DNA of 22,740 bases, from IMG/VR virus record IMGVR_UViG_3300050014_000551, positions 1-22,740 of that record, one strand, 5' to 3'. Positions 3,253 to 22,740 of the stretch are shown here, in pieces. Made by a program: the position numbers and the translations under genes. The notes beneath the pieces are model-generated. The model made no database searches. It was not told the origin of the DNA and worked only from the letters and a program-made list of their open reading frames with translations. Numbering within the stretch: the first letter of the stretch is position 1; each line of letters begins with the position of its first letter. The DNA comes from a virus.

Positions 3253-3253
3253 C

Positions 3254-8879: not shown

Positions 8880-8905
8880 TAACCAACCCTGAAAGGAAAA
8901 GACTC

Positions 8906-9088: not shown

Positions 9089-9102
9089 GGAAAGGATTCC
9101 GA

Positions 9103-10199: not shown

Positions 10200-10500
10200 A
10201 ACCCTATTCCCCGCCATCACGCCGCCCGTTCACGTCCTGGCATGCAGGGCTAACACCACGATCAGCCTTACCAGCGACACCAGGACATGCTCGGTAACCC
10301 ATCAATCCGTGCCCGCCAACCTGATTTTGACGATCCGGCAGGGCAAGGGCGAGAAACGGCGGTACTACTCGACGTGGCAGCAACTCGTCCGCCTGGGGCC
10401 GCGCACGTTGGCTGAGTTCATCCCCGACGCGGGCGCGGTCACGGCAGCGATAGCGGCTATGGAACACCTGCGGCTGCAGTACCGACAGTTTGACCTCTAA
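10192..10500 (+). CDS. Hypothetical protein, 102 aa
   Basis: The start overlaps the previous gene by 8 bases, with GGAAGGGGG at 10177-10185 as ribosome binding site. The protein is beta-rich in its N-terminal half (TTISLTSDTRTCSV, ILTIRQGKGEKRRYYSTW) and ends with a helix (VTAAIAAMEHLRLQYRQ). No family recognised. Confidence 0.62.
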   Translation: MPKTLFPAITPPVHVLACRANTTISLTSDTRTCSVTHQSVPANLILTIRQGKGEKRRYYSTWQQLVRLGPRTLAEFIPDAGAVTAAIAAMEHLRLQYRQFDL

Positions 10501-10527
10501 CCGCCCAAATGGGCAAGGAAATTGAAA

Positions 10528-11052: not shown

Positions 11053-11731
11053 TCTTGAGCGCCCTCCACACTGACGCCTCGGACCACGCCGAACCCCGTG
11101 GCGTGGTCTTGTTTTGCGCGTTCATCTCTGCGGCTATCCGCGCGTAGGTAGCGCCGCCCTCGCGCAGCGCCCGCATCGCGGGCAGCGTGTCCACTAGAAG
11201 CGACAAACTTCGCTCGTGGCGGTGCTCTGCGGCAGTGGCGCGGCCCTTTGCGGCAGCGATCTTCCACGCCTCTCGCTGTTGTGGCGTCCAAAATCCCTCC
11301 CGCTGACTGCCGAGCTTGACGCCGCGAGCCTTGGCCGCGCCAAGTGCCAGCTTGGTATTCAGGCTGATTCGGTCGGCCTCGTATTCCGCGACCAGGGCCA
11401 TGATCCCGATCATAAACTTGTTGGCTTCCGGCATGTCGGCGGCTTTGAACTCAACGCCAGATTCGCGGATGGACACCAGGAACGCGAGATTGCGCAGGAG
11501 CCTATCTAATCGCGCCACGATCAGGGTTGCCCCCGCCCGCTTACAGTGGGCCAGGGCCTTGAGCAGCTCTGGCCGGTCGCACCGCTTGCCAGATTCGACC
11601 TCGACGTAATCCGCTATGACGCCACCGTTGGCGTTGGTGTAGGTTGCTACGGCGACACGTTGCGCCTCTAAACCTAGACCACTCCGGCCCTGACGATCTG
11701 TACTTACGCGGTAGTATGCAATTAGCTGCAT
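11024..11731 (-). CDS. Serine recombinase, resolvase/invertase family, 235 aa
   Basis: The resolvase domain is clear: YYRVSTDRQ (catalytic Ser about residue 10), IVARLDRLLRN (about 71-81) and the E-helix region IMALVAEYEADRISLNTK (about 110-127). A C-terminal region (about 182-227, ending SEASVWRAL) resembles a helix-turn-helix DNA-binding domain. It is of the small resolvase/invertase size rather than a large serine integrase. Roles might be DNA inversion, resolution or insertion of the phage. A GAAGGAAGG site just upstream of ATG 11731 supports the start. It is the terminal gene of the leftward operon and converges on, and overlaps, the membrane-protein gene. Confidence 0.9.
   Translation of the reverse strand: MQLIAYYRVSTDRQGRSGLGLEAQRVAVATYTNANGGVIADYVEVESGKRCDRPELLKALAHCKRAGATLIVARLDRLLRNLAFLVSIRESGVEFKAADMPEANKFMIGIMALVAEYEADRISLNTKLALGAAKARGVKLGSQREGFWTPQQREAWKIAAAKGRATAAEHRHERSLSLLVDTLPAMRALREGGATYARIAAEMNAQNKTTPRGSAWSEASVWRALKTSTTPRRLQ
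11081..11116 (+). terminator. Rho-independent terminator for the rightward block
   Basis: Positions 11082-11090 (GACCACGCC) pair perfectly with 11100-11108 (GGCGTGGTC), with a 9-base loop, followed by TTGTTTT. It lies about 30 bases after the stop of the membrane protein gene. It also lies inside the coding region of the converging recombinase on the opposite strand, where it is only coding sequence. Confidence 0.7.
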
Positions 11732-11733
11732 GG

Positions 11734-11985
11734 CTACCCTTCCTTCATCGGTTCCACGGGCGGCAGCATCACGGGCGCGGGTTCGGCCTTGGGCGCTTCG
11801 GGTTCCGGCTCCGGCGGATTGGTGATCTCCCACTGCCGCAGGCCGATCTCGATGATGTACTGCGCAGCGTTAGACAGGCCACGGCGCTCGACCTTGGCCA
11901 CGCGCACGAGACGCGCCTTCACGGAGCGCAGCGCAGACACGTTCAAGGGCACAAACGGATCATCGGTGTTTCGGTATCGGGGCAT
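11734..11985 (-). CDS. Ribbon-helix-helix-like protein with Pro-rich tail, 83 aa
   Basis: The first 50 residues (DPFVPLNVSALRSVKARL, then RGLSNAAQYIIEIGLRQWEI) look like a short beta strand and two helices as in CopG-type repressors, but the fit is not strong. Residues 57-83 are a Pro/Glu-rich disordered tail. A good AAAGGAAG site precedes ATG 11985. It sits directly upstream of the recombinase, two bases apart, and may regulate this operon or the recombinase. Confidence 0.65.
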   Translation of the reverse strand: MPRYRNTDDPFVPLNVSALRSVKARLVRVAKVERRGLSNAAQYIIEIGLRQWEITNPPEPEPEAPKAEPAPVMLPPVEPMKEG

Positions 11986-11988
11986 CGT

Positions 11989-12381
11989 TCAGCTTCCTTT
12001 CGGGTTCGGGGTTGTGTTGGTCGTCTCTGCCGTCGTCTTTACTAGAGCGGCGCGGGCCTGCTCCAGCCATTTCGCATCGGGCGATCCGGCGTCGGGGGTG
12101 TCGCCAGCGAATGCGGGGTTGTCTAGTTTGTCCACGATCCACCGCAGCGCCGCTACGAGTTCGTCGTGGGCGTTGTCCGGGGCGCGACGGTTCCAGGTCT
12201 CCAGGGCCGTCTTGCGAGTAGAGCCTGTAACCTGTGGGGCCGCATTACACTCATCGTTGTCGCACATAACCATTCGCTTCTGCGGACCGCCACCATGCCA
12301 AGGCTCGATGAACGGCTGATGTCCGCAGAACGGACACGGCTTGGCATCTTCCTTCGACAATCGCACTGGTTCGTTGCTCAC
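11989..12381 (-). CDS. Lar-family-like zinc-ribbon protein, 130 aa
   Basis: Residues 15-66 have [12 protein letters not shown] (CxxC), a central MCDNDEC and a terminal ALETWNRR. This is the pattern of Lar restriction-alleviation proteins (phage Rac lar), which reduce the effect of type I restriction on phage DNA. The rest (to residue 130) is a helical extension not seen in short Lar proteins. Anti-restriction activity is inferred from the family and has not been shown. GTG start at 12381 with AGGAG at 12388-12392. The stop lies just 3 bases before the RHH gene start. Confidence 0.78.
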
Positions 12382-12408
12382 GTCATTCTCCTGCGCCCTC
12401 GCGGGCGG

Positions 12409-12567
12409 TTAATGGTTCTTTGCTGCATCAATCAGCGCCAACAGGTCATCGCGCCGCTGTAGTAATTCCCAGTTCCAGCACCGGCCGGAACAGTTCCGAA
12501 ATATCTCGTCCGTGATCTTGCGGGCAACGGCTCGCAGTTCGGCTTGGTAGGCTTCCAGTAGCGTCAT
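12409..12567 (-). CDS. Small hypothetical protein, 52 aa
   Basis: ATG 12567 overlaps the upstream stop by ATGA, and GGTGGG lies just before it. The open frame continues further upstream but overlaps the neighbour. The product is helical (LLEAYQAELRAVARKITDEI) with two Cys (CSGRCWNW) and a terminal LALIDAAKNH. Unknown. Confidence 0.6.
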   Translation of the reverse strand: MTLLEAYQAELRAVARKITDEIFRNCSGRCWNWELLQRRDDLLALIDAAKNH

Positions 12568-12788
12568 AGCCCACCGTCCACGTCCATCAAATCCAGCTCT
12601 AGCGCCGCCAGTCCGCACTCGGTCTGCTTGCGTCGGTCGCCGCGCTCGCCAGCACGTCGCGCCTCGCGGCGTAGCAGGTCGCTCATCGCGCGCCGCTGGT
12701 CGCGGATCAGCCGCTCGATAGCCTCGATCATGCTGGAGGTAGCGTATCCGCAGTTGACGAGTGGGATGTTTTCATTTACACTGACCAT
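12564..12788 (-). CDS. Hypothetical helical protein, 74 aa
   Basis: AAAGGAG is well placed before ATG 12788. The product is mostly helical and Arg-rich (AIERLIRDQRRAMSDLLRRE), with a C-terminal LAALELDLMDVDGGL. No family. It is coupled to the next gene by ATGA. Confidence 0.65.
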   Translation of the reverse strand: MVSVNENIPLVNCGYATSSMIEAIERLIRDQRRAMSDLLRREARRAGERGDRRKQTECGLAALELDLMDVDGGL

Positions 12789-12823
12789 GTTCGCAAGCTC
12801 CTTTCCTTTTGCCGGTTCCCCGG

Positions 12824-13225
12824 CTATTTGGTGGCCTTGGAAATTGCGGCGCGGGCGGCGTCAATACGGTTCTTCCGCAGAGCGTTAAACTCCTCATGCG
12901 ACAAGCCCGTCTTCGTTCCGTCATTACCACGACCATCGCCGTACACCATCGCCGGGCCTTCCGACTGCGCAAGCAACCCCTCCAGCGCCGCCAACAGGTC
13001 AGGGGCGGCTTTCAGCAGATTAGCAACGGCCCTGGGATTGTAACCAGACTCGCCGTAAATCATCGCCACAGCATGACCGCCCATGTACTCCTCGCCGGTG
13101 TCTGGCCACAGGTACAGGTCGCCCTTGTCGTTGGTGCCACCTTCCAGCTTGAGTTTGCAGTCAAGCGCGCGGGCATGTTCCCTGTTCGCCTGATCTGTAA
13201 CGGCGCGTCGTTCCTTGTTTGTCAT
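12824..13225 (-). CDS. Hypothetical phage protein with KAAPDLLAALE motif, 133 aa
   Basis: Start ATG 13225 is chosen over 13231 because AAAAGG lies 6 bases before it rather than touching it. The motif ANLLKAAPDLLAALEGLL is common in small phage early proteins of unknown function, usually near NAR.IA. A beta-rich segment (DLYLWPDTGEEYMGG) precedes it, and a GYNPRAVA segment stands where others have a longer linker. Not recognised beyond this. It is part of the leftward operon. Confidence 0.72.
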   Translation of the reverse strand: MTNKERRAVTDQANREHARALDCKLKLEGGTNDKGDLYLWPDTGEEYMGGHAVAMIYGESGYNPRAVANLLKAAPDLLAALEGLLAQSEGPAMVYGDGRGNDGTKTGLSHEEFNALRKNRIDAARAAISKATK

Positions 13226-13257
13226 GTTCATCCTTTTGCGGCGTTGCCGCGTTTGAG

Positions 13258-13413
13258 TTACTTGGTTCCTTGGGCCTTGGCGAGGGCAGCGCGGATCGCC
13301 TTGGTATAACCAACCACAAAGGCCACGCTGGCGTCCGTGGTGTTTTGTACCTGCATGTGCGCCCGGATAATGCGCCGGCAGTTCGCGCGTAGCTCTGTCA
13401 ATATCACAGTCAT
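13258..13413 (-). CDS. Small hypothetical protein, 51 aa
   Basis: The internal ATG 13413 is chosen because CGAAAGAGA lies immediately upstream; the longer frame would run into the next gene upstream. The product is helical and basic (TELRANCRRIIRAHMQVQN, then AFVVGYTKAIRAALAKAQ). Unknown. Confidence 0.55.
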   Translation of the reverse strand: MTVILTELRANCRRIIRAHMQVQNTTDASVAFVVGYTKAIRAALAKAQGTK

Positions 13414-13417
13414 TCTC

Positions 13418-13653
13418 TTTCGGTGTTTGATTTCGGAACTACTCTTTTTCAACATCCTTCAATGGGACACAAACATAATCCCCATCATCACAGAAGATCC
13501 GGACCAGTTTCCCGAGCTTGGGATGATCTTCCATCAAATGGGCTTTACCGGCATACTTATTTTTGCCGGAGAAAAAGAATACCCTGTCTTTGGCTTTGAT
13601 GGTTTTCATACGGCTACCTTTCAGTGTTTGGTTTCGGGACTACTTCTTTTTGC
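13418..13653. repeat. Imperfect direct repeat of about 33 bases flanking a 56-aa gene
   Basis: Positions 13418-13450 and 13619-13653 are near-identical: TTTC(G/A)GTGTTTG(A/G)TTTCGG(G/A)ACTACT, then a T insertion in the second copy and CTTTTT. Three substitutions and one indel separate them. In both places the repeat spans the end of one leftward gene and the ribosome binding site of the next, so it is a duplicated gene junction. Confidence 0.7.
13439..13609 (-). CDS. Small hypothetical protein, 56 aa
   Basis: An ORF of 56 codons between TAG (13439-13441) and ATG 13609, with a GAAAGG ribosome binding site. The product begins MKTIKAKDRVFFFSGKNKY and contains FCDDGDYVCVPLKDV, so it looks like a small beta-rich protein with a glycine turn, perhaps an SH3-like fold. 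Function unknown. It fills a stretch that otherwise would look empty. Confidence 0.55.
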   Translation of the reverse strand: MKTIKAKDRVFFFSGKNKYAGKAHLMEDHPKLGKLVRIFCDDGDYVCVPLKDVEKE

Positions 13654-13718
13654 CGAAAAACATTCGCAATCGGTGCGGCCTGGGCGACGGTCAGGGGATT
13701 GTGGTTGGCGCGGGTCAT
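13614..13718 (-). CDS. Micro-ORF, 34-aa peptide
   Basis: ATGA overlap with the upstream gene (13715-13718). The peptide is short (MTRANHNPLTVAQAAPIANV...) and ends just before the next gene's ATG. The end region lies in a duplicated stretch (see repeats), so it may be a by-product of spacer sequence. Low certainty. Confidence 0.35.
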   Translation of the reverse strand: MTRANHNPLTVAQAAPIANVFRQKEVVPKPNTER

Positions 13719-13945
13719 CGCTCGTGCCCTGTCTCGATCTGCCGGACTCGACCTGTGCCGTCCGTCCACACAACGACGCCGTTAGGCAGGCGCAGCGTGT
13801 ACCCTGCCGCTCCATCCGCCGGATGATCACAGGCGGCGATAGGCGTCCCGCCGCCAGGGCGATATATAGCCAGGGCGTCGGCCTGCAGCGCGGTCCGGTA
13901 GAGGACTCTAGACATGCCAGTTGCGGCTCTCTGCTCTGTCGTCAT
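13715..13945 (-). CDS. Hypothetical protein, 76 aa
   Basis: ATG 13945 has AGGAG and a second GGATC nearby on the coding strand and is preferred over the longer frame. The product is beta-rich in its second half (AAGYTLRLPNGVVVWTDGTGRVRQIE), which reads as a small beta-sheet domain. Unknown family. The 105 bases upstream are noncoding and structured (see ncRNA entry). Confidence 0.6.
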   Translation of the reverse strand: MTTEQRAATGMSRVLYRTALQADALAIYRPGGGTPIAACDHPADGAAGYTLRLPNGVVVWTDGTGRVRQIETGHER

Positions 13946-13964
13946 GATCCTGTACTCCTGTTTG

Positions 13965-14033
13965 GGCCGGCCAATTGCCGGCCATCCTGCGCCACCACGG
14001 CACGGGCCGCGTACCGCCGTGGGCACGGTACGC
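13965..14033 (-). promoter_or_regulatory. Leader with three hairpins, two mutually exclusive
   Basis: Inverted repeats: 14009-14016/14026-14033 (GCGTACCG / CGGTACGC), 13996-14001/14016-14021 (CACGGC / GCCGTG) and 13965-13971/13977-13983 (GGCCGGC / GCCGGCC). The first two share bases 14016-14021 in part and cannot form together fully. They lie in the leader of the 76-aa gene (start 13945), just before its ribosome binding site. No long U-tract is seen, so this is not a classical terminator. It may be an attenuator or a translational control element; this is an inference from geometry. Confidence 0.4.
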
Positions 14034-14050
14034 AGCCGGGGTCGAGAGGG

Positions 14051-14257
14051 CTACTTGACGCGACCGATGTAGTAACCAAGCCCGGTAGGCGCGTCGGGCT
14101 GGCCGCAGGTGTCAGACGGTAAGTCGCTGGCTAGCTCGCCGACCGTATCCACGAGTCGCCAGAGCGCAGCCGGGGCCTCTGACGCTGTGTCCAGCATCCG
14201 CGCGGCGTCCCGTAGCATCGTCTGTATCCGTTTGAGTTGCATCTGTGCCATTTCCAT
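14051..14257 (-). CDS. Hypothetical helical protein, 68 aa
   Basis: AAGGAGA at 14264-14270 on the coding strand fits ATG 14257 best (ATG 14263 and 14251 are alternatives). The product has an amphipathic helix (QLKRIQTMLRDAARMLDTA) and a C-terminus ending TGLGYYIGRVK. Unknown. Confidence 0.6.
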   Translation of the reverse strand: MEMAQMQLKRIQTMLRDAARMLDTASEAPAALWRLVDTVGELASDLPSDTCGQPDAPTGLGYYIGRVK

Positions 14258-14284
14258 CTTCATTCTCCTTCCGCTCTCGCGGGG

Positions 14285-14458
14285 TTAGTAAGCCAGGTAG
14301 TGCGCGGGCTTCTTGCCGCTGGTAACGTTCTCGATGATGGCGTCCAGCTCGGCGCGGTTCTGTCTGACAAACTCGCGCTTTGACAGGCGAGAGCCACGCC
14401 ACCAGTTGTAAAGCCCTTCATCGTTGTCAATCCACTGTTCACGTTCTTGATTGTTCAT
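14285..14458 (-). CDS. Phage NDEGLYNWW-type small protein, 57 aa
   Basis: The first gene of the leftward operon. ATG 14458 is preferred because AAAGGAATAGG lies just upstream; the frame is open to a TTG at 14509 that has no ribosome binding site. The motif IDNDEGLYNWW, then SKREFVRQNRAELDAIIENV and a C-terminal PAHYLAY match a recurrent small phage protein of unknown function. It is transcribed from the promoter at 14522-14550, giving it a likely early role. Confidence 0.75.
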   Translation of the reverse strand: MNNQEREQWIDNDEGLYNWWRGSRLSKREFVRQNRAELDAIIENVTSGKKPAHYLAY

Positions 14459-14521
14459 CGTCCTATTCCTTTGCTCTTGAGGTTGTGTATTCGGTTTCTC
14501 GTTGCTCAATCTCTATCGTCA

Positions 14522-14550
14522 ATATTACTCCATGATCTTTAGCAAGTCAA
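14522..14550 (-). promoter_or_regulatory. Sigma70-like promoter for the leftward operon
   Basis: On the reverse strand: TTGACT at 14545-14550, a 17-base spacer and TAATAT at 14522-14527. The -35 box matches consensus in five of six bases, the -10 in four of six, and the spacing is ideal. The start point would be near 14515, about 57 bases before ATG 14458. It lies in an AT-rich region without genes. Confidence 0.6.
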
Positions 14551-14574
14551 TGGGGAAAATATAATTTCTTTTAG

Positions 14575-14594
14575 TATCTTGTAGGCCCAAGATA
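14575..14594. promoter_or_regulatory. Inverted repeat, candidate operator between divergent promoters
   Basis: TATCTTG (14575-14581) and CAAGATA (14588-14594) form a perfect palindrome with a 6-base centre (TAGGCC). It lies between the two divergent promoters, 25 bases from the leftward -35 box and 34 bases from the rightward -35 box. This position suits a repressor operator. The bound protein is unknown; the ribbon-helix-helix-like protein at 11734-11985 or the winged-helix protein at 9936-10199 are candidates. Confidence 0.5.
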
Positions 14595-14628
14595 TAGCTA
14601 ATAAATCTCTAGGTATTGTGGTTTTCAG

Positions 14629-14658
14629 TTGACAATATACAAGGCGCATGTTTACAAT
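14629..14658 (+). promoter_or_regulatory. Sigma70-like promoter for the rightward genes
   Basis: A perfect TTGACA at 14629-14634, an 18-base spacer and TACAAT at 14653-14658 (five of six). The predicted start point is near 14665, 16 bases before ATG 14681. It overlaps the ATG at 14648, which argues against that ATG being the gene start. Confidence 0.7.
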
Positions 14659-14680
14659 CCAGGCAAGAAAGGCGCGAATC

Positions 14681-14947
14681 ATGGATGATGACCGCACGAC
14701 GTGCAAATTATGCGGGGGACCGTATCGGGGCGATAAGGGGCGGACCAAGGTCAACGACCCACTCTATATGGTATATGTTCGCGGCTGGGGCTGGATTTGC
14801 TTCGATTGTCTACTGGGTATGTCCTGGATACCCACAACGCGCCGCCGGCAAATGTGGTACGTGGAGAATGTCGTAGGGGATACGGGGCAGAACACGCCGA
14901 AAAACCGCAAGCGCCGAAGCCGAGCAAAGAAAAATCTAGCGGGCTAG
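14681..14947 (+). CDS. Zinc-ribbon protein, 88 aa
   Basis: The first gene after the rightward promoter. ATG 14681 is used because the promoter lies upstream; AAGAAAGG precedes it. The product has CKLCGGPYRGDKG near the N-terminus and CFDCLLGMSW around residue 41, a CxxC...CxxC ribbon, followed by a strongly basic tail (NRKRRSRAKKNLAG) that suggests nucleic acid binding. Position and basic tail would suit a small regulator of the late genes. Family unknown. Confidence 0.7.
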   Translation: MDDDRTTCKLCGGPYRGDKGRTKVNDPLYMVYVRGWGWICFDCLLGMSWIPTTRRRQMWYVENVVGDTGQNTPKNRKRRSRAKKNLAG

Positions 14948-15004
14948 ACGGAATGGTGACAGAAATTACCACGATTTGCGGCCTTTATTAGATATAGGTA
15001 CACG

Positions 15005-15466
15005 ATGATAGAACTTCCAGGCACATCATGCGAACAAAGCCAGCTACGCACGGCACTTATCCGCGTTCCTGAACGTCATCGGGAGGACGCGGTGCAAGAG
15101 GCCTGGCTCGCGTACCTGACGAGCCGGACCGCCGGCAGCAAGTATCCGGCGCGGGCAGCTACTCACGCGATAGTCAGATTCTCCAAACGTGAGAAACGAT
15201 GGGAGCGCGGACAACCCGACGATTACGCCCAGACCGTGATTAGTCAGATGGACCCGCTCGAAGCTGAGAAGGTGGACGAGGTCAGCGGCAGCGAGAGGAA
15301 CCGGGCGCGCCGGGCCGTCGAAGAGAACAAACGCCAGCACCGCAAGAGGCAGAGATGCACCAAGATCCGAGACAGGGCGGCAAACTCGCCGGTAGCAGAA
15401 GGCGAATGGGACAACGCCGTCCGGGCCGTCGAGGACGCCGCCGACCTAGCTGATACCCCGGCCTGA
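15005..15466 (+). CDS. Helical basic protein, sigma-like motif, 153 aa
   Basis: The N-terminal part (RTALIRVPERHREDAVQEAWLAYLTSR) recalls the core helix of sigma factor region 2, which binds RNA polymerase, and a second helical segment follows (ATHAIVRFSKREKRWE). The rest is Arg/Glu-rich, and the C-terminus is acidic and Ala-rich. No region 4 is obvious, so a sigma role is only suggestive. The ribosome binding site is weak (AGGTAC). It lies between the control region and the terminase genes, a place where phages often put late regulators. Confidence 0.6.
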   Translation: MIELPGTSCEQSQLRTALIRVPERHREDAVQEAWLAYLTSRTAGSKYPARAATHAIVRFSKREKRWERGQPDDYAQTVISQMDPLEAEKVDEVSGSERNRARRAVEENKRQHRKRQRCTKIRDRAANSPVAEGEWDNAVRAVEDAADLADTPA

Positions 15467-15504
15467 GACCCGGCCGCGCTCGAGATCGTAGCTCCTGGGG
15501 CAGC

Positions 15505-15569
15505 GTAGAGCACCAAAATCAGGCAAAATGCCCCGAAATGGGCAAAACTGGCCAGTAGAGCACCAAAAT
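15505..15569. repeat. Two 15-base direct repeats before the small terminase
   Basis: GTAGAGCACCAAAAT occurs at 15505-15519 and 15555-15569, exactly 50 bases apart. Between them is a short inverted repeat, TGCCC / GGGCA with a 6-base loop. Repeats next to terS are typical of pac or cos binding sites, which is an inference here. About 80 bases downstream is the start of the terminase gene. Confidence 0.6.
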
Positions 15570-15581
15570 GACACCAAGCCA

Positions 15582-15600
15582 AGGCCCCGCGTAAGGGCCT
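15582..15600. other. Small hairpin, AGGCCC/GGGCCT
   Basis: A 6-base perfect stem (15582-15587 with 15595-15600), 7-base loop. No T-tract follows on either strand, so it is not an intrinsic terminator. It lies in the 190-base noncoding stretch between 15467 and 15656. Confidence 0.45.
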
Positions 15601-15656
15601 GTAAAGCGGCTGGATAAGTGGTAAAGATCGTACAAGATTAGGCTGCGAGAGTCACA

Positions 15657-16226
15657 ATGCAAGGTCGAGCCAACACCTGGGAAGCGACAGAACACCAGGA
15701 AGCGGCTGTAAGGTACGCCCAAGAATATGATTACAAGTATAGCGTACCTGAACTTTGCGAATCTGTGGGAATTGCCAAGCAGTCTTACTATAGCTGGTTC
15801 AAGACTCCTGAGTTCCTAACGTGGTGGCTGGGTGAGTCGGCAAGATGGCGCGCGTTGAAGCTGCCGGAAGTTCACAAAGTCATTGCAGAACAAGCACTTG
15901 CGAAGTCGAAGCCCGGCGACGCTCGCTATGACATGAAGGCCGTCGAACTGTACCTCCAGCGGTTCGATGAGGGCTTCGTCCCGCGATCCCGCCAGGACAA
16001 CCACAATACGCTGGATATCACGGCCGAGCTGTCCGACGCCGACGCCACAAGGCGGATCGAGGCGATGATCCTCCAGCTCGCCCCGGCCGAGCAGCAGGCG
16101 CTGCCAGCGCCCGCCGACGTGATCGACACGACCTGTACACCCGCCACAAGCCCAATAGAGCTCGCCCTGCATGCGGAGAGCGACGATCCGGCCCAGGTTG
16201 AGGGATTGGAGGAGCTGGCGCGATGA
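15657..16226 (+). CDS. terS: Probable small terminase subunit (phBC6A51-like homeodomain), 189 aa
   Basis: The small terminase binds pac or cos DNA and guides the large subunit. Residues 28-53 (YSVPELCESVGIAKQSYYSWFKTPEF) form a helix-turn-helix of the homeodomain-like type seen in phage terminase small subunits. A helical core follows (ALKLPEVHKVIAEQALAKSKPGDARYDMKAVELYLQRFDEGF), and the C-terminus from about 115 is acidic and rather disordered. It is preceded by repeats (15505-15569) that may be its target. terL lies about 2.7 kb downstream, separated by small genes and a tRNA. Confidence 0.75.
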   Translation: MQGRANTWEATEHQEAAVRYAQEYDYKYSVPELCESVGIAKQSYYSWFKTPEFLTWWLGESARWRALKLPEVHKVIAEQALAKSKPGDARYDMKAVELYLQRFDEGFVPRSRQDNHNTLDITAELSDADATRRIEAMILQLAPAEQQALPAPADVIDTTCTPATSPIELALHAESDDPAQVEGLEELAR

Positions 16227-16288
16227 TTGACGGTGGCGAGACTGTGATGATCGTGCTGGCTGTCCTGCTCGTGCTTGTGCATAGATGA
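16223..16288 (+). CDS. Membrane micro-peptide, 21 aa
   Basis: ATG 16223 overlaps the terS stop (ATGA) and has a strong GGAGGAG at 16208-16214 with an 8-base spacer. The peptide is MIDGGETVMIVLAVLLVLVHR, a single 13-residue hydrophobic run. The good ribosome binding site makes it more believable than most short ORFs. Unknown role. Confidence 0.45.
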   Translation: MIDGGETVMIVLAVLLVLVHR

Positions 16289-16571
16289 CAACCTTCGCGC
16301 AGTCCGACGTTCGTCCGTAGTGGCGCAAGATTGCCCGATGCCCTTGTGCGGCAAGGGGTTAGGTGCAATGCAGCGTATTGGGCGACGCCAGGACAGGCCT
16401 AGGTGACAGCAGCGCGGGGCTGGACAGATCGCGACGCCCAGGCCCGCGTCGACCCCCGGTATACGCCGCCCCTGCCGGTCGATCGCGCGGCCGCAACCGC
16501 GAGCCGGAGTCCAGTGTACTCTCGCCGCATTGCTCTTAGCTTCTGACTCTCTGTTAACTTGGGTAATCTCC
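16289..16571. other. Gene-poor stretch
   Basis: No well supported gene is present. The longest candidate is a GTG-start 47-codon frame at 16403-16546 (weak support, no strong ribosome binding site). The reverse frames are shadows. Nothing like a promoter with both boxes was found; the stretch is GC-rich. It may be the remains of a gene. Confidence 0.4.
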
Positions 16572-16943
16572 ATGAATCCATCGCAGTTTGTCAAGGACGA
16601 GTGCTGCAACTTGAACGATGGTGTGTGCCTGACCAACGAGAAGCCGTGTCTGGTCTTGGTTGGCAAGAGGTGCGACTACTTCGAGACGGCGGTACTGCCT
16701 ATTGCTCAACAGCCAAGCCCCAAGAGCGACCCTGACCTACAATCGCGGCGCGCTGAGGCGGTTGCTGAGTATGCGTGGAAGCACAAGGCTGGAAACGGAT
16801 CATCGAGTCCTTGTCCTGACTGTGGCGGCGCGAAGCCCAAGGGCCATCGGTACTGCGAGTCTTGCGCTCGGAAAAGGCGAAAAAGCAGCTTCCGGCGCAC
16901 CCGCGAGACTAAGGCCGTCCGGCGCGCAACAGTTGAGGCATAA
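16572..16943 (+). CDS. Cys_rich_VLP-like protein with C-terminal zinc ribbon, 123 aa
   Basis: Residues 10-44 carry CCNLNDGVCLTNEKPC, then a C in GKRCDYFETAVLP; this resembles the Pfam Cys_rich_VLP pattern (ends YFE.AVLP). The C-terminus has CPDCGGAKPKGHRYCESCARKRRK, a second, ribbon-like zinc site with a basic tail. It is a two-domain Cys-rich protein of unknown function; nucleic acid binding is likely from the Arg/Lys tail. ATG 16572 is used, with only a weak ribosome binding site (TTGGGTAAT). The stop abuts a terminator. Confidence 0.68.
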   Translation: MNPSQFVKDECCNLNDGVCLTNEKPCLVLVGKRCDYFETAVLPIAQQPSPKSDPDLQSRRAEAVAEYAWKHKAGNGSSSPCPDCGGAKPKGHRYCESCARKRRKSSFRRTRETKAVRRATVEA

Positions 16944-17037
16944 AAACACGCATAGTTTCCTAGGAAATTCGCGTGTCTTTTCTTGAACTGGTGTATTGAT
17001 ACGGACCCCCTAGAAACGGCCTCAACAACTGTTGCGC
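16924..17037. repeat. Long imperfect inverted repeat around the terminator
   Basis: GCGCAACAGTTGAGGC (16924-16939) and GCCTCAACAACTGTTGCGC (17019-17037) are complementary except for a 3-base AAC insertion. A second inner pair, GTTTCCTAGG near 16955 and CCCTAGAAAC near 17009, lies in the same orientation. The left arm is within the end of the upstream gene. Confidence 0.7.
16942..16984 (+). terminator. Terminator hairpin with A-tract and T-tract
   Basis: An outer stem, ACACGC (16946-16951) with GCGTGT (16971-16976), encloses the palindrome TTTCCTAGGAAA (16956-16967). It is preceded by AAAAA and followed by CTTTTCTT, so it can work on the rightward transcript and perhaps on a leftward one. The stop codon of the Cys-rich gene lies inside the A-tract. 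Confidence 0.7.
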
Positions 17038-17115
17038 AGAGCGTCCTAGCGTGTAGGGTGGATGTTGGCTAGTATCTCTCGCCTTACTGCTCACGGATAA
17101 CGGAGTGCTGTTAAG

Positions 17116-17460
17116 ATGGATAAGCGCACAAGGGAAGCAGTTGAACGGATGATGATATTGCCATGTCCCTTCTGTGGCGCAGAAGTGAAGCCCGAACCCT
17201 ATGGTACCTACGCCAAATGGCGAATCCATTGTTTTGCTTGTGGCGTTCATTTCGATCTAGCAAACGATCTTCCGGCCTCAATCAGCAAGTGGAATCGCCG
17301 TACCGATCTGAGCACTGGCCGCATTGAGTTGTTCGTGGCAAGTATGGTTGTCGCCGGCGGCGCTGTTCTAGGCGATCCTGCGTCTTGGTTAAGCAGGTAC
17401 GAGTTGGCGCAGATAAGACGCCTACCCCTTGGAGGTACGGATGCCCGACCGGAACTGTGA
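17116..17460 (+). CDS. Second Lar-like zinc-ribbon protein, 114 aa
   Basis: Residues 17-62 show CPFCGAEVKPEPYG, then CFACGVHFDL and SKWNRRTD, the Lar ribbon layout (two CxxC and a terminal WNRR). Residues 63-114 form an extra domain with a hydrophobic part (FVASMVVAGGAVLGDPASW). It is not a simple copy of the other Lar-like gene in the window, with different C-terminal parts. Family function is anti-restriction, inferred only. The stop overlaps the next ORF, which starts within its end. Confidence 0.7.
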   Translation: MDKRTREAVERMMILPCPFCGAEVKPEPYGTYAKWRIHCFACGVHFDLANDLPASISKWNRRTDLSTGRIELFVASMVVAGGAVLGDPASWLSRYELAQIRRLPLGGTDARPEL

Positions 17461-17656
17461 AACGTGTTATGCCAAAGGAAGTCGCGTGGGGGACTTTGAT
17501 GGATGTTGACACAAGCCCAAGTGCCTTGACTGTACGACGAATGGCTACAAGTCCTACTGGACGCCAAAGATTGAGAAGCCAAAGTCCCCGATGGTACTTG
17601 TCCCGCTTGGTGTGACATGTGCGGGAATTGGACGAGGCAGAAGTGATTTACCTTAG
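17441..17656 (+). pseudogene. Cys-rich gene broken by an in-frame TGA, 71 codons
   Basis: ATG 17441 has GGAGG at 17431-17435. The frame reads MPDRNCETCYAKGSRVGDFDGC, then TGA (17507-17509), and stays open for 48 further codons (HKPKCLDCTTNGYKSYWTPK, and so on) to a TAG at 17654-17656. The restored protein would share the start DRNCETC and the segment KSYW.xK with the protein at 18064-18363, so the two are paralogues. No other start lies near enough to rescue the downstream part. The simplest cause is CGA to TGA. The 22-residue product would still have a zinc knuckle. Confidence 0.7.
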
Positions 17657-17752
17657 GGCTTAGACCTGGGCCGGATTAGAAGCCGGGTTCTTGCGTTTAT
17701 GGCACCGGACACACGCGCCTGCCGAAAGACCCAGGACCAAAATCTGGTGCAG
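17657..17752. other. Noncoding stretch before the tRNA
   Basis: No ORF is credible. A weak complementary pair (CCTGGG at 17665 with CCCAGG at 17730) is the only structure I found. Confidence 0.4.
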
Positions 17753-17842
17753 TTGGCGGTAGCTCAGTTGGTAGAGCCTTGGCATCCACTGTGCCTTCGG
17801 GCCCGTAGGATGCGTGTCGTGGGTTCGAGTCCCACCCGCCAG
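17753..17842 (+). tRNA. tRNA-like gene with about 18 extra bases; isotype unclear
   Basis: Acceptor TTGGCGG (17753-17759) pairs with CCGCCAG (17836-17842; first pair T.G). The D-arm is GCTC (17762-17765) and GAGC (17774-17777), the T-arm GTGGG TTCGAGT CCCAC (17819-17835), and U8/A9 are present. No CCA is encoded. The space between the D and T arms is 41 bases rather than about 23. The best long stem there is GCATCC (17782-17787) with GGATGC (17808-17813), leaving a 20-base loop with a TTCG-type stem. A short GGCA/TGCC pair competes. Therefore I cannot give an anticodon. It may carry an insert, be degenerate, or be a special class. Confidence 0.7.
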
Positions 17843-18063
17843 TTTACTTTGGGGGTTGAAGGAATCGCTGATGAGGTTCACGGCCACGGAGCAGCGGCGC
17901 AGCACCCGCCTGGCGAAACTACGGTTGATGGCGTGCGACTGGTGAACTTACCTATAACACTGCCGCCGTTATTATAGCAAATGGCGAGTTGGTAAAATAA
18001 CGATACCTGACGCAATCGCCACATGGAACTGCCGCACGCCTTCGGGGGCTGTAGAGGTCAAGG
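17843..18063. other. Noncoding stretch after the tRNA
   Basis: The only ORF of note is a 24-codon frame at 17871-17945 with GAAGGAA before its ATG; it is too short to call. TGGCGA/TCGCCA pairs flank a stretch near 17983-18025. No terminator was found. Confidence 0.4.
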
Positions 18064-18363
18064 ATGGATAGGAACTGCGAAACGTGTGGCCTCAATCCCC
18101 GCGACCTCGGACGCTGCTGTGAACATTACGATGTTGGCTGTACTGGCCGGTACGCGAAGTCCTACTGGAAGTCCAAGCCTGACGTAAAGCCTGTTGACGC
18201 TCTGGACATAGACCCAGTGCCGCCGCAGTCAGAACTAACGCTTCGTGAGACTAACATCTACTTCCGTGGCTGTCAGCTCTGGATTGACTCGGACAAAGGC
18301 GAGTCGTTGGTTCGTCGGTTCGAGGCCCATATGAAGCGGATGATGGCAAGAGACATGGCGTAA
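18064..18363 (+). CDS. Cys-rich protein, paralogue of the broken gene, 99 aa
   Basis: The product begins MDRNCETCGLNPRDLGRCC and continues with CTGRYAKSYWKSK, a pattern of small phage Cys-rich proteins related to the pseudogene at 17441-17656. The C-terminal half (LRETNIYFRGCQLWIDSDKG) is not shared with it. AAGGATG at the start gives a moderate ribosome binding site. Unknown function; likely zinc binding. Confidence 0.68.
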   Translation: MDRNCETCGLNPRDLGRCCEHYDVGCTGRYAKSYWKSKPDVKPVDALDIDPVPPQSELTLRETNIYFRGCQLWIDSDKGESLVRRFEAHMKRMMARDMA

Positions 18364-18366
18364 GCT

Positions 18367-18501
18367 ATGGACGATCTTAGTATTCGCGCGCAGCAGAACC
18401 TTCACACTGGCACGGCTGGCGCAATGGGCGCGGCCCAGAAGCACCTCGCCGACATGCGTGCGATTGCTGCCAAGTTCTTGAAGGTGGAGTTGCCCAAGTA
18501 G
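18367..18501 (+). CDS. Small hypothetical protein, 44 aa
   Basis: A short ORF starting three bases after the upstream stop. The product is helical (AQQNLHTGTAGAMGAAQKHL). No ribosome binding site is clear, so translation by coupling is required. Unknown. Confidence 0.45.
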   Translation: MDDLSIRAQQNLHTGTAGAMGAAQKHLADMRAIAAKFLKVELPK

Positions 18502-18578
18502 ACCCCCATACTCCCCGCCCCCTAGTTGTTCTGAATCGCCCCCGGCTTTCCTAATGCTTCCCTGCCGCCTCTGATTCT

Positions 18579-18887
18579 ATGAGCAAAGGTTCCAGACGAC
18601 GCCCGATGCAGATTCCGCGCGACCAGTTGGACGCAAACTGGGCGCTGGTGTTTGGGAATAAACAAGCCGCCCCAAAGGTTTCTGATTCTGAGACTGACTG
18701 TGAGCGCTGCAACGGTGCTGGTTGGCTCTGGCGACACGAGATTGATCCAGACGGCCATCACGAATCGGCTATGGCGGGATACTCAGACGATACGCAGTAC
18801 AGTTGCCCAGATTGCCACGGCAGCGGCAAACAAGTCGTCATTACCCGCGACTTCATGGGCCTAGGAAGCCTTGTAGTAAACCCCTGA
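18579..18887 (+). CDS. DnaJ-type CxxCxGxG zinc protein, 102 aa
   Basis: The protein has CERCNGAGW (about residues 41-49) and CPDCHGSGK (about 76-84), two CxxCxGxG repeats as in the zinc domain of DnaJ. The N-terminus has RRRPMQIPRDQLDANWALVFG, a start I associate with short phage proteins close to the terminase. ATG 18579 lacks a Shine-Dalgarno and is preceded by CTGATTCT, as is terL. It may be a chaperone-like or zinc-binding helper of head assembly; this is inference. Confidence 0.7.
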   Translation: MSKGSRRRPMQIPRDQLDANWALVFGNKQAAPKVSDSETDCERCNGAGWLWRHEIDPDGHHESAMAGYSDDTQYSCPDCHGSGKQVVITRDFMGLGSLVVNP

Positions 18888-18891
18888 TTCT

Positions 18892-20715
18892 ATGAAATCC
18901 GATACTCTCGCCTCAAGACTCTGGCATACCATTCGCGGCAGCAAGGCCAAAATCCTTGACATGCGCCTGATGGTGATGAAAGCGAGGCCGGCCGATCGCG
19001 CCGCCCTGATGCAGACGTTCTCGCAGGGCGCGGATGGCCTGCTGTGCTGGTTGAACTTGTGCGGCTGGGTGTTCGAGCCTCGCAACCGTGAGCGGAAGTT
19101 ACCCTTCATTACCTGGCCGATTCAGGACAGGGCCGCTGTTGGACTACACCGCGCAATCGGCGTGGGCAACGACGTGGCAATCGACAAGTCCCGCGACATG
19201 GGCGCGTCGTGGCTGTGTCTGTCGGTCATGGACTGGTTCTGGCTGTTCGAGCGCGAGAGCCTGTTCAAGTTGGTCAGCCGAAACGAAGATTTGGTGGACA
19301 AGCCAGCCGACCCTGACACGTTGTTCTGGAAGTTGGACTTCCTGAACAACAATCTGCCGTCGTGGATGCAGCCGGGTGCCAAGGCTGGAAAAGATCGAAC
19401 GCACATGCGACTGGTCAACCCCCGGAACGGGTCGATATTCACCGGCGAGTCCACGAATCAGGATGTAGGCAAGGGCGGTCGCCAACGCGCTATCCTGCTG
19501 GACGAGTTCGGGGCGGTGCTGAATGGAGGTGCGATTCTTTCCGCGACCAGCGATACCGCTCCATGCCGTATCTTCAACTCGACACCGAACGGATGGGGCA
19601 GTTTCGACGACAAGAAACAGTTGCGCGGCAACGCCTTTGCCGCCATACGATTCTCCAATGCCGTGCAGATTATTTCCCTTCCGTGGTGGGAACACCCCGA
19701 AAAGGGCAAAGGCGCACACTTGGCACCCGACGCCAACGGCAAGATGAAGTGGACCTCGCCGTGGTACGAGAAAGAATGTGTCCGTCGCGCATCGCGTCGA
19801 GAGATTGCCGAAAACTTGGATATGGACTACTTGGGTTCTGGGTCCATGTTCTTCGATTCCGAAGTACTGACCAGGATTCGTGCCGCCTGCCGTCCTGCCG
19901 ACAAACTGGGCGAATTGCGGTTTGACGTGCGAACCTACGTCGAGGGCCAGTCCTACCGCGTCGAGAAGATTCGCTTCGAGGAAACTGACCGGGGCCATTT
20001 GCAGTTGTGGTGTCCGTTGGCGCTTGACGACAAGGGCGAACTTCGTCCGCCCCAGGACCATACCTACGTCGGCTTCTGCGACATTTCCGCCGGCAACGGG
20101 GCGTCCAACAGTCGAATCACGATCTGCGACGTGGACCTGCGGGCATCGGTTGGCGCGTTCACCTGCCCCAATACGTCGCCAGAGCAGTTGGCGCGGACGG
20201 CTGTGGCCTTGTGCAAGTGGTTCCGTGGGCAGACCGGCTTCGTCTATCTCGGCTGGGAAGCGAACTTCGATGGCGGTCCGTTCGGCCGCGAGGTGCTGCG
20301 GCTGGGCTACTACTACGTGCTGGGCAACTCCAACCCGGCCTACGCCTGGAACCCCACCGATGGCAAGGTGGGCTGGTATTCAGGCCGCGAGAAGAAACGA
20401 TACTTGCTGACCGATCTTCGTTCGGCCTGGGCGCGGGGTGAGTTGAACACGTTCGATTCCGCGACGGTGGACGAGGCGGGCCAGTACACGACTTATTCAG
20501 GCGGCGGGATCGGGCCTTCAGGTCTGACCGAGGAAGATCAAGGCGCTCGGGCGGCACACGGCGACCGCGTGATTGCCGAGGCGGGCTGCGTGATGATGCT
20601 CCGCGAGCAGGTTAAGTCCAGGCCGCCAGAGAAGGCGATTCCCAAGGGTTCCCCGGCCGCTCGTAAGCGGTGGTGGAGGCGGGAAAAGGCGAAGTCGCAA
20701 GAAGAAACATGGTAG
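18892..20715 (+). CDS. terL: Terminase large subunit, 607 aa
   Basis: This is the motor and nuclease that packages phage DNA. The ATPase half has a Walker A-like KSRDMGAS (residues 99-106), as in T4-type terminases, a Walker B ILLDEFG (201-207) and a coupling motif STPNGWG (230-236). The nuclease half has D397 (FCDISAGNG), E456 (GWEANFDGG) and D558 (HGDRV), the RNase H-like triad. The length of 607 is normal. No ribosome binding site is seen; the start is marked by CTGATTCTATG overlapping the preceding stop TGA. Confidence 0.93.
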   Translation: MKSDTLASRLWHTIRGSKAKILDMRLMVMKARPADRAALMQTFSQGADGLLCWLNLCGWVFEPRNRERKLPFITWPIQDRAAVGLHRAIGVGNDVAIDKSRDMGASWLCLSVMDWFWLFERESLFKLVSRNEDLVDKPADPDTLFWKLDFLNNNLPSWMQPGAKAGKDRTHMRLVNPRNGSIFTGESTNQDVGKGGRQRAILLDEFGAVLNGGAILSATSDTAPCRIFNSTPNGWGSFDDKKQLRGNAFAAIRFSNAVQIISLPWWEHPEKGKGAHLAPDANGKMKWTSPWYEKECVRRASRREIAENLDMDYLGSGSMFFDSEVLTRIRAACRPADKLGELRFDVRTYVEGQSYRVEKIRFEETDRGHLQLWCPLALDDKGELRPPQDHTYVGFCDISAGNGASNSRITICDVDLRASVGAFTCPNTSPEQLARTAVALCKWFRGQTGFVYLGWEANFDGGPFGREVLRLGYYYVLGNSNPAYAWNPTDGKVGWYSGREKKRYLLTDLRSAWARGELNTFDSATVDEAGQYTTYSGGGIGPSGLTEEDQGARAAHGDRVIAEAGCVMMLREQVKSRPPEKAIPKGSPAARKRWWRREKAKSQEETW

Positions 20716-20734
20716 GGGGCTGAAAGGACGCGAA

Positions 20735-21262
20735 ATGCCTGAATGGTTCCCGATTGTTCTAACTGTTTACATGGTTGTGGCCCTCCTTGCTGGTTTGTGC
20801 GACCTGTTTGAGCATCGCAGTTTGCGGAAACAAAACGCCCTGCATCAACGTCGCGCAGAAGTCCACTGGAAACTGCTTGTGGGCCACGCGAAATCAATCA
20901 AGGCTTCGCGTGACGCTGCGATTGATGACCGCAAGAACGTCCACGCGCACATCTACGCCGTGGCGCAAAGACTTATCGAGGCCGAGAACAAGCGGTACGC
21001 CAAGGTCGCCGACGACGTGAATGAACTCCGCAAGAGTGTTGGCGCTGCCGACATCAAACTTGACGCCGACAAACTCAACATCAACGCCCTTCGCCAGTCA
21101 GTCTGCGGGCTGGCTGGCAAGCACGAGTGGGTAGAGCGTGGGCGCGCCAATTGTCTTGGCACAGGCTACGCCGTGTTGCAGATATGCAGCTTGTGCGGGG
21201 CGCAGCGAACAATCCGCCAGAACGACAAGGCTCCTAAGAAGGCGAAGAAGCATGGCCGCTAA
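20735..21262 (+). CDS. Membrane-anchored coiled-coil protein with Cys pair, 175 aa
   Basis: An N-terminal hydrophobic helix (IVLTVYMVVALLAGLCDLF, residues about 7-25) is followed by a long Lys/Arg/Ala/Glu-rich helical region to about residue 120, probably coiled coil. The C-terminus has CSLCGAQRTIR, a CxxC knuckle. GAAAGGA before ATG 20735 is a good ribosome binding site. It lies immediately after terL. Possibly a virion or lysis accessory; no family. Confidence 0.65.
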   Translation: MPEWFPIVLTVYMVVALLAGLCDLFEHRSLRKQNALHQRRAEVHWKLLVGHAKSIKASRDAAIDDRKNVHAHIYAVAQRLIEAENKRYAKVADDVNELRKSVGAADIKLDADKLNINALRQSVCGLAGKHEWVERGRANCLGTGYAVLQICSLCGAQRTIRQNDKAPKKAKKHGR

Positions 21263-21593
21263 ACTCCCCGTGATCTGGGTTGTCGTCCACTACTTCGCAC
21301 CCGAACACAAGGCGACGGCCGACAAACTGGGCGGCATCGTCGGCGCGAATCAGGTCAACTACGACGAGTCGAAGAAGTCGCAGCCGTTCATCGGGCACCT
21401 GATGATTCACGCTTCGTCTGTGGTGAACGGGATTCGCGTCACGGTCGATCGCGCCGTGTTGCTGGCCGATCTGGAGTCGTGCGCAAACTGGCTTTCTTAT
21501 GGCGAGGCGCTAAGAAAACTTATCTGCGCCGGCCTGGCCGACCCCGTGATTGCGAACTGGCAGCGCCAACTAGCGGCGCGGATGGCGAACTGA
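21252..21593 (+). CDS. Hypothetical protein, 113 aa
   Basis: It overlaps the previous gene by 11 bases. The protein is beta/alpha-mixed (LPVIWVVVHYFAPEH, HLMIHASSVVNGI) with an Ala/Leu-rich helical C-terminus. The ribosome binding site is weak (AAGGCGAAG). No family. Confidence 0.6.
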   Translation: MAAKLPVIWVVVHYFAPEHKATADKLGGIVGANQVNYDESKKSQPFIGHLMIHASSVVNGIRVTVDRAVLLADLESCANWLSYGEALRKLICAGLADPVIANWQRQLAARMAN

Positions 21594-21838
21594 TGGAACA
21601 TTGGTTTAACGCCTGGGGATTCGGCTGGTGCATTGCGATTACCGTATACGTACTGTTGTGGCTGATCCTCTGCATCCGTGCCCTTCGTCGAGAAAAGGCA
21701 AACTACTGGTTCCTGTGCCTTGGTGGACCCGACGTTGCAAGATATTGTGGACAGTGGCACTATCTCCGGCCGCGCGATCTTGGCCCTGACTATGACTACG
21801 TAGTTGAACCGGGGTGCGCACCAAGGACGGCGAACTGA
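21593..21838 (+). CDS. Small membrane protein, 81 aa
   Basis: Its ATG shares the last base of the previous TGA. One clear TM helix (WCIAITVYVLLWLILCIRAL, residues about 12-31) is followed by a basic and soluble C-terminal half rich in aromatic residues. Unknown role. Confidence 0.6.
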   Translation: MEHWFNAWGFGWCIAITVYVLLWLILCIRALRREKANYWFLCLGGPDVARYCGQWHYLRPRDLGPDYDYVVEPGCAPRTAN

Positions 21839-22032
21839 TGGACGGGCTTCTGGAGTTGATTCGGGCGCGACGCGAGAAGGCGTTGCTGTCAATCTGGCGA
21901 AACTGCCTGCCGCAATTAGGGAACCAACGTCCCGACAACACGCTCACTCCGTTCGGCGACTTCGCGGAGCAGGACAGTGTTCGCTGTTTGCGAACTGCGA
22001 ACGTCGCCGTGCAGAAACATGGCACACGCTGA
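21838..22032 (+). CDS. Hypothetical protein, 64 aa
   Basis: ATG 21838 shares a base with the previous stop. The N-terminal half is a basic helix (LLELIRARREKALLSIWRN) and the rest is mixed. The frame is the most consistent of three overlapping ones here; a longer frame from 21804 looks like a shadow. Unknown. Confidence 0.5.
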   Translation: MDGLLELIRARREKALLSIWRNCLPQLGNQRPDNTLTPFGDFAEQDSVRCLRTANVAVQKHGTR

Positions 22033-22237
22033 AATCTGCCCGGTATGCAAGGGGCAAGCGATTCCGGGTAGCACCTGCACTGGCTGTGGCGGGAAGGGCT
22101 GGGTGACGGTACAGGATGCTCCGACCGCGCCTTACTGGCCACCGCCACAACAACCCTATTGGAATCCACCGCAGCAGCCGACGCCGTTGATTCCGTACAA
22201 TCCGAATCCTCCGTGGTGGCCCATAATCATCTGTTGA
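22019..22237 (+). CDS. Zinc ribbon with Pro/Trp-rich tail, 72 aa
   Basis: The N-terminus has CPVCKGQAIPGSTCTGCGGKGW, a zinc ribbon. The C-terminal 40 residues are Pro/Gln/Trp/Tyr-rich with repeated YWPPPQQ and YWNPPQQ, like a flexible binding tail. It overlaps the previous gene by 14 bases. It ends just before a hairpin and the portal-like gene. Confidence 0.62.
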   Translation: MAHAEICPVCKGQAIPGSTCTGCGGKGWVTVQDAPTAPYWPPPQQPYWNPPQQPTPLIPYNPNPPWWPIIIC

Positions 22238-22238
22238 G

Positions 22239-22254
22239 CAAGCCGGGGGGCTTG
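22239..22254 (+). other. Hairpin before the portal-like gene
   Basis: CAAGCC (22239-22244) pairs with GGCTTG (22249-22254) around a GGGG loop. No T-tract follows, so it is not a strong terminator; it may modulate expression of the next gene. It lies 6 bases before ATG 22261. Confidence 0.5.
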
Positions 22255-22260
22255 TAAATC

Positions 22261-22740
22261 ATGGCTGAAATAGCCGCACCCAATATCAAGACTTCCAAGA
22301 ACGACTCCGCCGTGCGCCTATCGCGGGCGATGCAGTCGGCACAGAAGAAGATTGCGCCCTTCCAAGAGAAGCGCATCGAGCAGGTGCGCCAGTTCGCGGG
22401 CCGAAACCACGGCGCGAATAAAGGTGCCCGCGATTTGCTGAATCTGCCGCTGTCCCTGGTCACGACCCTGCTTCCGCACCTGACGCTGGAACCGCGAGCG
22501 ATGATCGTGCCGGTGTTCCCCGAGCGCGCTTCGTTCGCTGATAAGTTTGAATTGACCCTGAACCGCCGCCTGTCGCACATGGACATCGGCACGAGTTTCC
22601 GACTGGCCATCATCGACTCGATGTTCGGCCCCGGCATCCTCAAGACCGGGCTGGGCGAATCGGAGGCGGGCGAGTTCCGCGAGGCCGAGAACTACCGCCA
22701 CGATCCCGGCCGCCCGTTCTGCGACCGCGTGGACTTCGAC
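22261..22740 (+). CDS. Portal-like protein, 5' partial (160 codons to edge)
   Basis: The frame runs from ATG 22261 to the right edge. Visible features are an N-terminal helical part (MQSAQKKIAPFQEKRIEQVRQ), a basic FAGRNHG segment, LLNLPLSLVTTLLPHLTLEPR, and DIGTSFRLAIIDSMFGPGILKTGLGE, which resembles the clip or stem area of phage portal proteins. It sits downstream of terL in the usual order terminase then portal. The head-entry channel would be its role. The truncation is due to the window edge. Confidence 0.7.
   Translation, partial: MAEIAAPNIKTSKNDSAVRLSRAMQSAQKKIAPFQEKRIEQVRQFAGRNHGANKGARDLLNLPLSLVTTLLPHLTLEPRAMIVPVFPERASFADKFELTLNRRLSHMDIGTSFRLAIIDSMFGPGILKTGLGESEAGEFREAENYRHDPGRPFCDRVDFD

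Follow-up and report, generated by a model that had tools for sequence, protein, structure and literature searches.

The closest described counterpart of the element reported here is artificial. In the laboratory tRNA scaffold, the acceptor, T, and D arms are kept and the anticodon stem-loop is made an insertion hairpin that holds a payload; the product is processed and stabilized by the cell's tRNA machinery (PMC3753655). Natural RNAs with an unusual anticodon region have also been described. Introns in phage tRNAs were first reported for Lak megaphages (PMC6784885). tRNA-Sec, allo-tRNA, and tRNA-Pyl have altered arm lengths, including long anticodon stems (PMC7609411). In tmRNA, the upper half of a tRNA, lacking the anticodon arm, is combined with a coding region and pseudoknots, and there is no ordinary D stem.

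The element considered below lies in the window, i.e., the whole 22,740-nt stretch of viral DNA that was analyzed. As in the scaffold, the acceptor, D, and T arms are kept and a hairpin replaces the anticodon stem-loop; unlike the scaffold, the element is natural, phage-borne, and known from its sequence. It shares elbow sequence and pairing with phage tRNA genes, scoring above the gathering threshold of the Rfam tRNA family (RF00005), but lacks their 5-bp anticodon stem, 7-nt loop, U33, and purine 37 and is solitary, outside any tRNA array. Extra sequence in the anticodon arm is common to this element, the Lak megaphage tRNAs (PMC6784885), and a group of phage tRNAs whose inserts carry an ACAGCAA motif; in the latter two, excision restores the arm, whereas here it does not, and there is no shared motif. 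The element resembles tmRNA in its top half but has an ordinary D stem, and it lacks the decoding 7-nt anticodon loop that the noncanonical tRNAs keep, as far as the available part of PMC7609411 describes them. A search of open-licence PMC papers found no phage tRNA-like gene with a hairpin-replaced anticodon arm, which is weak evidence.

Anatomy and anticodon region of the element

The features of the locus are as follows:

17116–17460, + strand: Lar-type restriction alleviation protein (PF14354, exactly at the curated cutoff), upstream neighbor
17753–17843, + strand: tRNA-like element as a whole, 91 nt, CCA not encoded (RF00005, ARAGORN, and MFE)
17753–17759, + strand: acceptor stem 5′ strand, TTGGCGG; 7/7 pairs with 17836–17842, the first pair being U-G
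17762–17777, + strand: D arm, GCTC-AGTTGGTA-GAGC; 4 bp, 8-nt loop with G18G19
17778–17781, + strand: connector CTTG, leading from the D arm to the hairpin; ordinary tRNAs have 1 nt here
17782–17813, + strand: hairpin replacing the anticodon arm; GCATCC/GGATGC stem and 20-nt loop (17788–17807)
17793–17802, + strand: inner hairpin GCC-TTCG-GGC within the 20-nt loop
17814–17818, + strand: variable loop GTGTC, an ordinary 5 nt; C48 matches G15
17819–17835, + strand: T arm, GTGGG-TTCGAGT-CCCAC; 5-bp stem
17836–17843, + strand: acceptor 3′ strand CCGCCAG and discriminator T, followed by TTA and not by CCA
18064–18363, + strand: Cys-rich 99-aa protein, downstream neighbor, with direct repeats D1 and D2
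18892–20715, + strand: terminase large subunit (PHROG 2 and 5989), the marker defining the phage clade

The element (17753–17843) reads TTGGCGG-TA-GCTC-AGTTGGTA-GAGC-[41 nt]-GTGGG-TTCGAGT-CCCAC-CCGCCAG-T. All 16 stem pairs are formed (acceptor 7/7 with one U-G, D 4/4, and T 5/5), and the bases making the tertiary contacts (U8-A14, G15-C48, G18G19, and TTCGA) are all present. The element thus has the canonical class I features of a 7-bp acceptor, a D arm, a 5-bp T arm with a TTCRA loop, and the elbow contacts, in agreement with the initial annotation, which had called the three arms canonical class I and had placed the gene at 17753–17842, right to within one base (17753–17843 with the discriminator and 17752–17844 according to ARAGORN). 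The distance of 41 nt from the D arm to the T arm (17778–17818) that it reported is exact. GCATCC (17782–17787) pairs with GGATGC (17808–17813), and this stem, the 20-nt loop, and the inner TTCG hairpin, all of which had been noticed earlier, are present; the pairing probability of the stem in partition function calculations is at least 0.99 in isolation and 0.91 to 0.97 in context. The hairpin abuts the ordinary 5-nt variable loop exactly. As for the 3′ end without encoded CCA, in a sampled list, the four host tRNAs that match the 5′ part of the element likewise lack it.

RF00005 matched the element at 38.4 bits (gathering score, 29; E = 5.7e-5), a score that comes from the elbow alone, with the 41 nt treated as an insertion. 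The MFE of 17752–17844 is −39.4 kcal/mol. Compared with 200 dinucleotide shuffles each, the folding of the whole element outdoes 198 (z = −2.4) and that of the insert 191 (z = −2.2). When 200 nt of context was folded with ViennaRNA, the acceptor preferred other pairings, as is also the case for 19% of ordinary phage tRNAs. As a control, the strict elbow scanner was run on one strand of ~2 Mb of mononucleotide-shuffled sequence, where it produced no match.

The surroundings of the element show signs of duplication. A diverged partial copy of the Cys-rich gene (18064–18363) is located upstream, at ~17440–17650 (direct repeats D1/D2, with a spacing of 608 to 620), and an apparent frame-broken Lar copy was found by eye 3′ of the element, at ~17872–18067. 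The element therefore lies inside a duplicated gene pair. Since one copy of each gene looks frame-broken, the "broken gene" mentioned in the initial annotation is plausible. No promoter or terminator was recognized. The phage also encodes a serine recombinase of the invertase/integrase kind.

Elsewhere in the window, inspection by eye showed an inverted repeat at ~16923–17040 (GCGCAACAGTTGAGGC / GCCTCAACAACTGTTGCGC), which is imperfect and encloses an ACACGC/GCGTGT hairpin. Positions 1–302 recur at 87% identity in L299:15014–15307, ~1 kb from where the sibling contig described below ends. An ARAGORN tRNA-Trp call at L299:9847–9930 is spurious: it falls in a GGTGTTCC repeat and is brought about by repeated GGTGTTCCNGTNGCC units within coding sequence.

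In tRNAs, position 33 is nearly always U and position 37 a purine. The canonical 5-bp anticodon stem and 7-nt loop with these bases are absent from the element. The sole arm with a 7-nt loop that can be drawn is the GGCA/TGCC arm of the tRNA-Val(cac) that ARAGORN places at 17752–17844; it has C33, U37, and a U-U closing pair, and its partition function probability is 0.002. The remark that a normal anticodon arm cannot be drawn well is thereby borne out. A confident standard tRNA call with such an arm had been named beforehand as the finding that would speak against the annotation, and the call obtained is the Val call with this improbable arm. As to class II, the variable loop has the usual length of 5 nt (GTGTC), and the alternative 22-nt arm has no stem. 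The element belongs to neither canonical class I nor class II tRNAs because its anticodon arm was tested and is absent. What it does show is an intact elbow with a hairpin in place of the anticodon arm, as in a tRNA scaffold. A tmRNA was also considered and rejected: the D stem is fully paired (4/4), and there was neither an ARAGORN tmRNA call nor a match to an Rfam tmRNA family.

For each of the odd elements, including those of related phages described below, we also enumerated all single excisions that leave 22 to 23 nt between the D and T arms. The resulting arms were scored (maximum 8) on the presence of a stem of 5 bp, a loop of 7 nt, U33, and a purine 37. The best excision in the window element scored 5 of 8, a value reached by 79% of shuffles; with looser connector and variable-loop lengths, the best score was 6, reached by 48% of shuffles. 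The two positive controls, genes with intron-like inserts, scored 8, with 0.5 to 2% of shuffles as good. A simple intron-bearing tRNA is rejected on these grounds, as removing any single stretch restores no normal anticodon arm. A bulge-helix-bulge intron is rejected as well, since the two 3-nt bulges lie at the same junction, facing each other.

Related phages and their elements

A near-identical sibling of the window was found in a 63,720-bp viral contig (IMGVR_UViG_3300050015_000317), which is 100% identical over window positions 8892–22740 and 99.99% identical over window positions 1–8972. Its 127-bp terminal direct repeat suggests a complete circular genome. The window element is known in these two near-identical contigs only (one mismatch in the first 9 kb), so its own hairpin offers no covariation test. 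The sibling contains a second odd element of 116 nt (61510–61625, 42.4 bits), located 3′ of the RecT gene; here, a long hairpin with bulges stands where the anticodon arm would be. Thus, the element stands alone in the window, as originally stated, but not in the complete sibling, where the second one lies 43.7 kb beyond the first. No similar DNA was found in cultured phages for either of the two.

A pattern scan of IMG/VR (2.9 million viral contigs) that combined a class I D arm, 32–62 nt, and GTCGYGGGTTCGANYCCC returned ten stretches. One of them, L208, carries a 95-nt element located 271 nt downstream of a terminase gene whose product is 45% identical to that of the window; the insert of this element forms a long, almost uninterrupted hairpin (z = −3.5, equaled by none of the shuffles). 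This link with the terminase is independent evidence because the scan used the RNA only. An 86-nt element with an abnormal elbow is present in L004/L005 (terminase 41% identical), and a Rhodopirellula MAG contig (terminase 47 to 50%) contains an elbow of 59.7 bits at L308:240–316 with an enlarged anticodon loop of ~11 to 13 nt, its only departure from a tRNA being about four additional bases in the loop. No elements were found in L212–L215 or in the rest of the Rhodopirellula contig.

Comparison with related phages, which had been proposed as a check, revealed abnormal elbows in four of the seven terminase-clade contigs (in the fetched sequence), a count that includes L308 and L004, both of which would pass as ordinary under a permissive wobble-tolerant filter. 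Among 159 more distant terminase relatives, a loose scanner gave five hits, three of them weak and two resembling real elbows. Of these two, L059 has an insert of 88 nt, and L057 is close to ordinary except for its enlarged loop. The comparison of 4/7 clade contigs with ~2/159 other TerL relatives gives a Fisher value of ~2e-5, to be taken as a guide and not as an exact probability since contigs vary in length and some loci are near-duplicates. The L059 element (L059:14326, minus-strand reading) has 7/7 acceptor pairs and belongs to a phage with a 35% terminase relative; it may be a member of the class from outside the clade.

Of the 80 acceptor, D, and T stem pairs in the five clade elements, 77 are standard; the exceptions, in L208 and L004, are two 1-72 mismatches and one D-stem mismatch. 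U8-A14, the D-loop GG, and TTCGA are kept in all five, and the Levitt pair 15-48 covaries, being G-C in three elements and A-U in two. The inserts, in contrast, have no sequence in common, none of the five contains ACAGCAA, and two fold no better than shuffles (the second element of the sibling, z = −0.5, and L308, z = +0.5). This contrast between a kept elbow and unrelated inserts, seen across five elements, may point away from even decay.

The location of the element differs from phage to phage: before TerL, after TerL (in L208, at the start of the ~2.9 kb between the terminase and the gene in the portal position), after the portal-position gene (in L004, 3′ of it), and after RecT. There is no synteny across the phages, and the genes downstream are unrelated. 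The elements lie in intergenic gaps on the strand of their neighbors, and an ORF often starts 7 to 40 nt downstream. The variable position and the strand matching that of the neighbors would suit an independent trans-acting gene cotranscribed with phage genes.

In the genome collection, relatives of the terminase were found in seven Planctomycetota MAG contigs, with one weak match in Poribacteria, and a Planctomycetota host is therefore likely. In 294 Planctomycetota genomes, the elbow-plus-long-gap pattern occurred once, as an ordinary tRNA beside a chance match, and no real element was found.

Interpretation and alternatives

We give an even chance to the window element encoding a non-decoding tRNA-like RNA in which a complete elbow carries a hairpin instead of the anticodon arm. 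A natural counterpart of the laboratory tRNA scaffold fits best what can be read from the DNA; among the four options that the initial annotation had listed without choosing, this corresponds to the tRNA mimic. We infer that the element is transcribed and processed and that its hairpin has a target. Most likely, the RNA would be cut from a polycistronic phage transcript by host tRNA-processing enzymes, with the 5′ end made by RNase P and the 3′ end by the 3′ tRNA nuclease followed by CCA addition, these enzymes reading the elbow and acceptor and not the anticodon. What results would be a stable RNA unable to read codons, with the hairpin as its working part; it might display the hairpin or occupy elbow-binding host proteins. 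An antisense payload is not indicated, as no insert match of at least 12 nt was found elsewhere in the window and two further sibling stretches (the longest was 11 nt).

The main rival is a degenerate tRNA, i.e., a functionless phage tRNA gene that lost its anticodon arm by rearrangement, which we consider unlikely without dismissing it. The adjoining gene pair is duplicated and partly broken, U1-G72 and other 1-72 pairs are weak, the only drawable anticodon loop has C33 and U37, and decay predicts unrelated inserts. Decay should strike the elbow too, yet its pairs stand almost without exception and pair 15-48 covaries. The recurrence of intact elbows with unrelated hairpins in four lineages, one phage having two copies, also speaks against decay, as do the exact junction of the hairpin with the variable loop and its better-than-shuffled folding. 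A cis-acting signal, in which the tRNA-like fold would mark a cleavage site separating mRNAs or control the following gene, is improbable in our view; the intergenic position on the strand of the neighbors and the closely following ORFs agree with it, but downstream genes are unrelated between phages, the position moves, and a long hairpin would be superfluous for cleavage alone. We place slightly less trust in a precursor tRNA with a small anticodon-arm intron removed before use, as in Lak megaphages. Phage tRNAs with intron-like inserts do exist (PMC6784885), and a large family with the ACAGCAA motif, described below, was encountered in this analysis. In such genes, one excision restores a perfect arm, but in the window element no excision outdoes shuffled inserts, the motif is absent, and the facing bulges form no bulge-helix-bulge.

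The two remaining alternatives are both very improbable. The ARAGORN call favors a working tRNA-Val(CAC) that decodes and has a long variable arm. Such a tRNA requires C33, U37, the U-U closing pair, and an arm of negligible pairing probability, its would-be variable arm is stemless, and other clade elements give different isotypes or no call. We reject this option, which the initial annotation had also raised. An attachment-site remnant of a host tRNA gene would accord with the serine recombinase of the phage, but the host matches are short pieces of Ala, Lys, Met, Leu, and Ser tRNAs, none of which spans the 3′ end, and the sibling genome appears circular.

Returning to the scaffold-like reading, we propose more tentatively that phages with relatives found in Planctomycetota carry a mobile class of putative non-decoding RNAs, in which the elbow would be a processing and stability handle and the hairpins interchangeable payloads, possibly binding host or defense proteins. 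If the RNA is made, the tRNA body is used by phages for a purpose other than decoding, and evolution has reached the same design as engineers for stabilizing arbitrary RNAs. Annotation programs label such genes pseudogenes or unusual tRNAs, so that the class would go unseen in existing viral genomes. The questions that this opens are what the hairpin binds and whether removal of the element alters infection.

Other phage tRNAs with enlarged anticodon regions

In a first scan, many odd phage tRNAs proved to be array tRNAs with a 37- to 62-nt insert consisting of a hairpin followed by ACAGCAA. A second scan for such tRNAs yielded 77 stretches, making 88 distinct genes with the earlier loci (L094, L139, L148, L201, and L314–L385, e.g., L338:905 +, L384:1619 +, and L343:593 −). 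A match of L148 to a Caulobacter phage is to an ordinary tRNA. One excision gave a perfect-scoring arm in 37 of the 88 genes, compared to 0.9% of shuffles. The inserts often follow nucleotide 28 or 31, and in the Lys(UUU) genes L338 and L384, pair 27-43 swaps from C-G to G-C across the insert. Two near-identical cultured jumbo phages carry the same gene of this family: that of Serratia phage BF (KY630187, L387:368–492) is annotated as a pseudo-tRNA, and that of Erwinia phage pEa_SNUABM_19 (MW879342, L386:447–571) as tRNA-Lys(ttt). The ACAGCAA inserts are possibly the "enigmatic introns" of Lak phages. The window element is outside this family.

Other unusual phage tRNAs were encountered in addition. 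The 93-nt elements (L090, L091, L111, L121, L143, L153, and others) represent a recurrent phage tRNA present in many contigs, with a class I D arm, an anticodon loop CTTATAC (TAT), and a long variable arm (CAGATTA). L158 (1627–1484, 410–256, and 2731–2613) and L200 (1454, 1894, and 2687) are arrays with several elbows having 50 to 105 nt between the D and T arms, without ACAGCAA. Long anticodon regions were also seen in unrelated phages at L209:3497–3387, L136:6375–6466, L118:11582–11671, and L185:9745–9655, with no ordinary tRNA nearby according to ARAGORN. L209 could be intron-bearing, since excision after position 31 gives a perfect arm.
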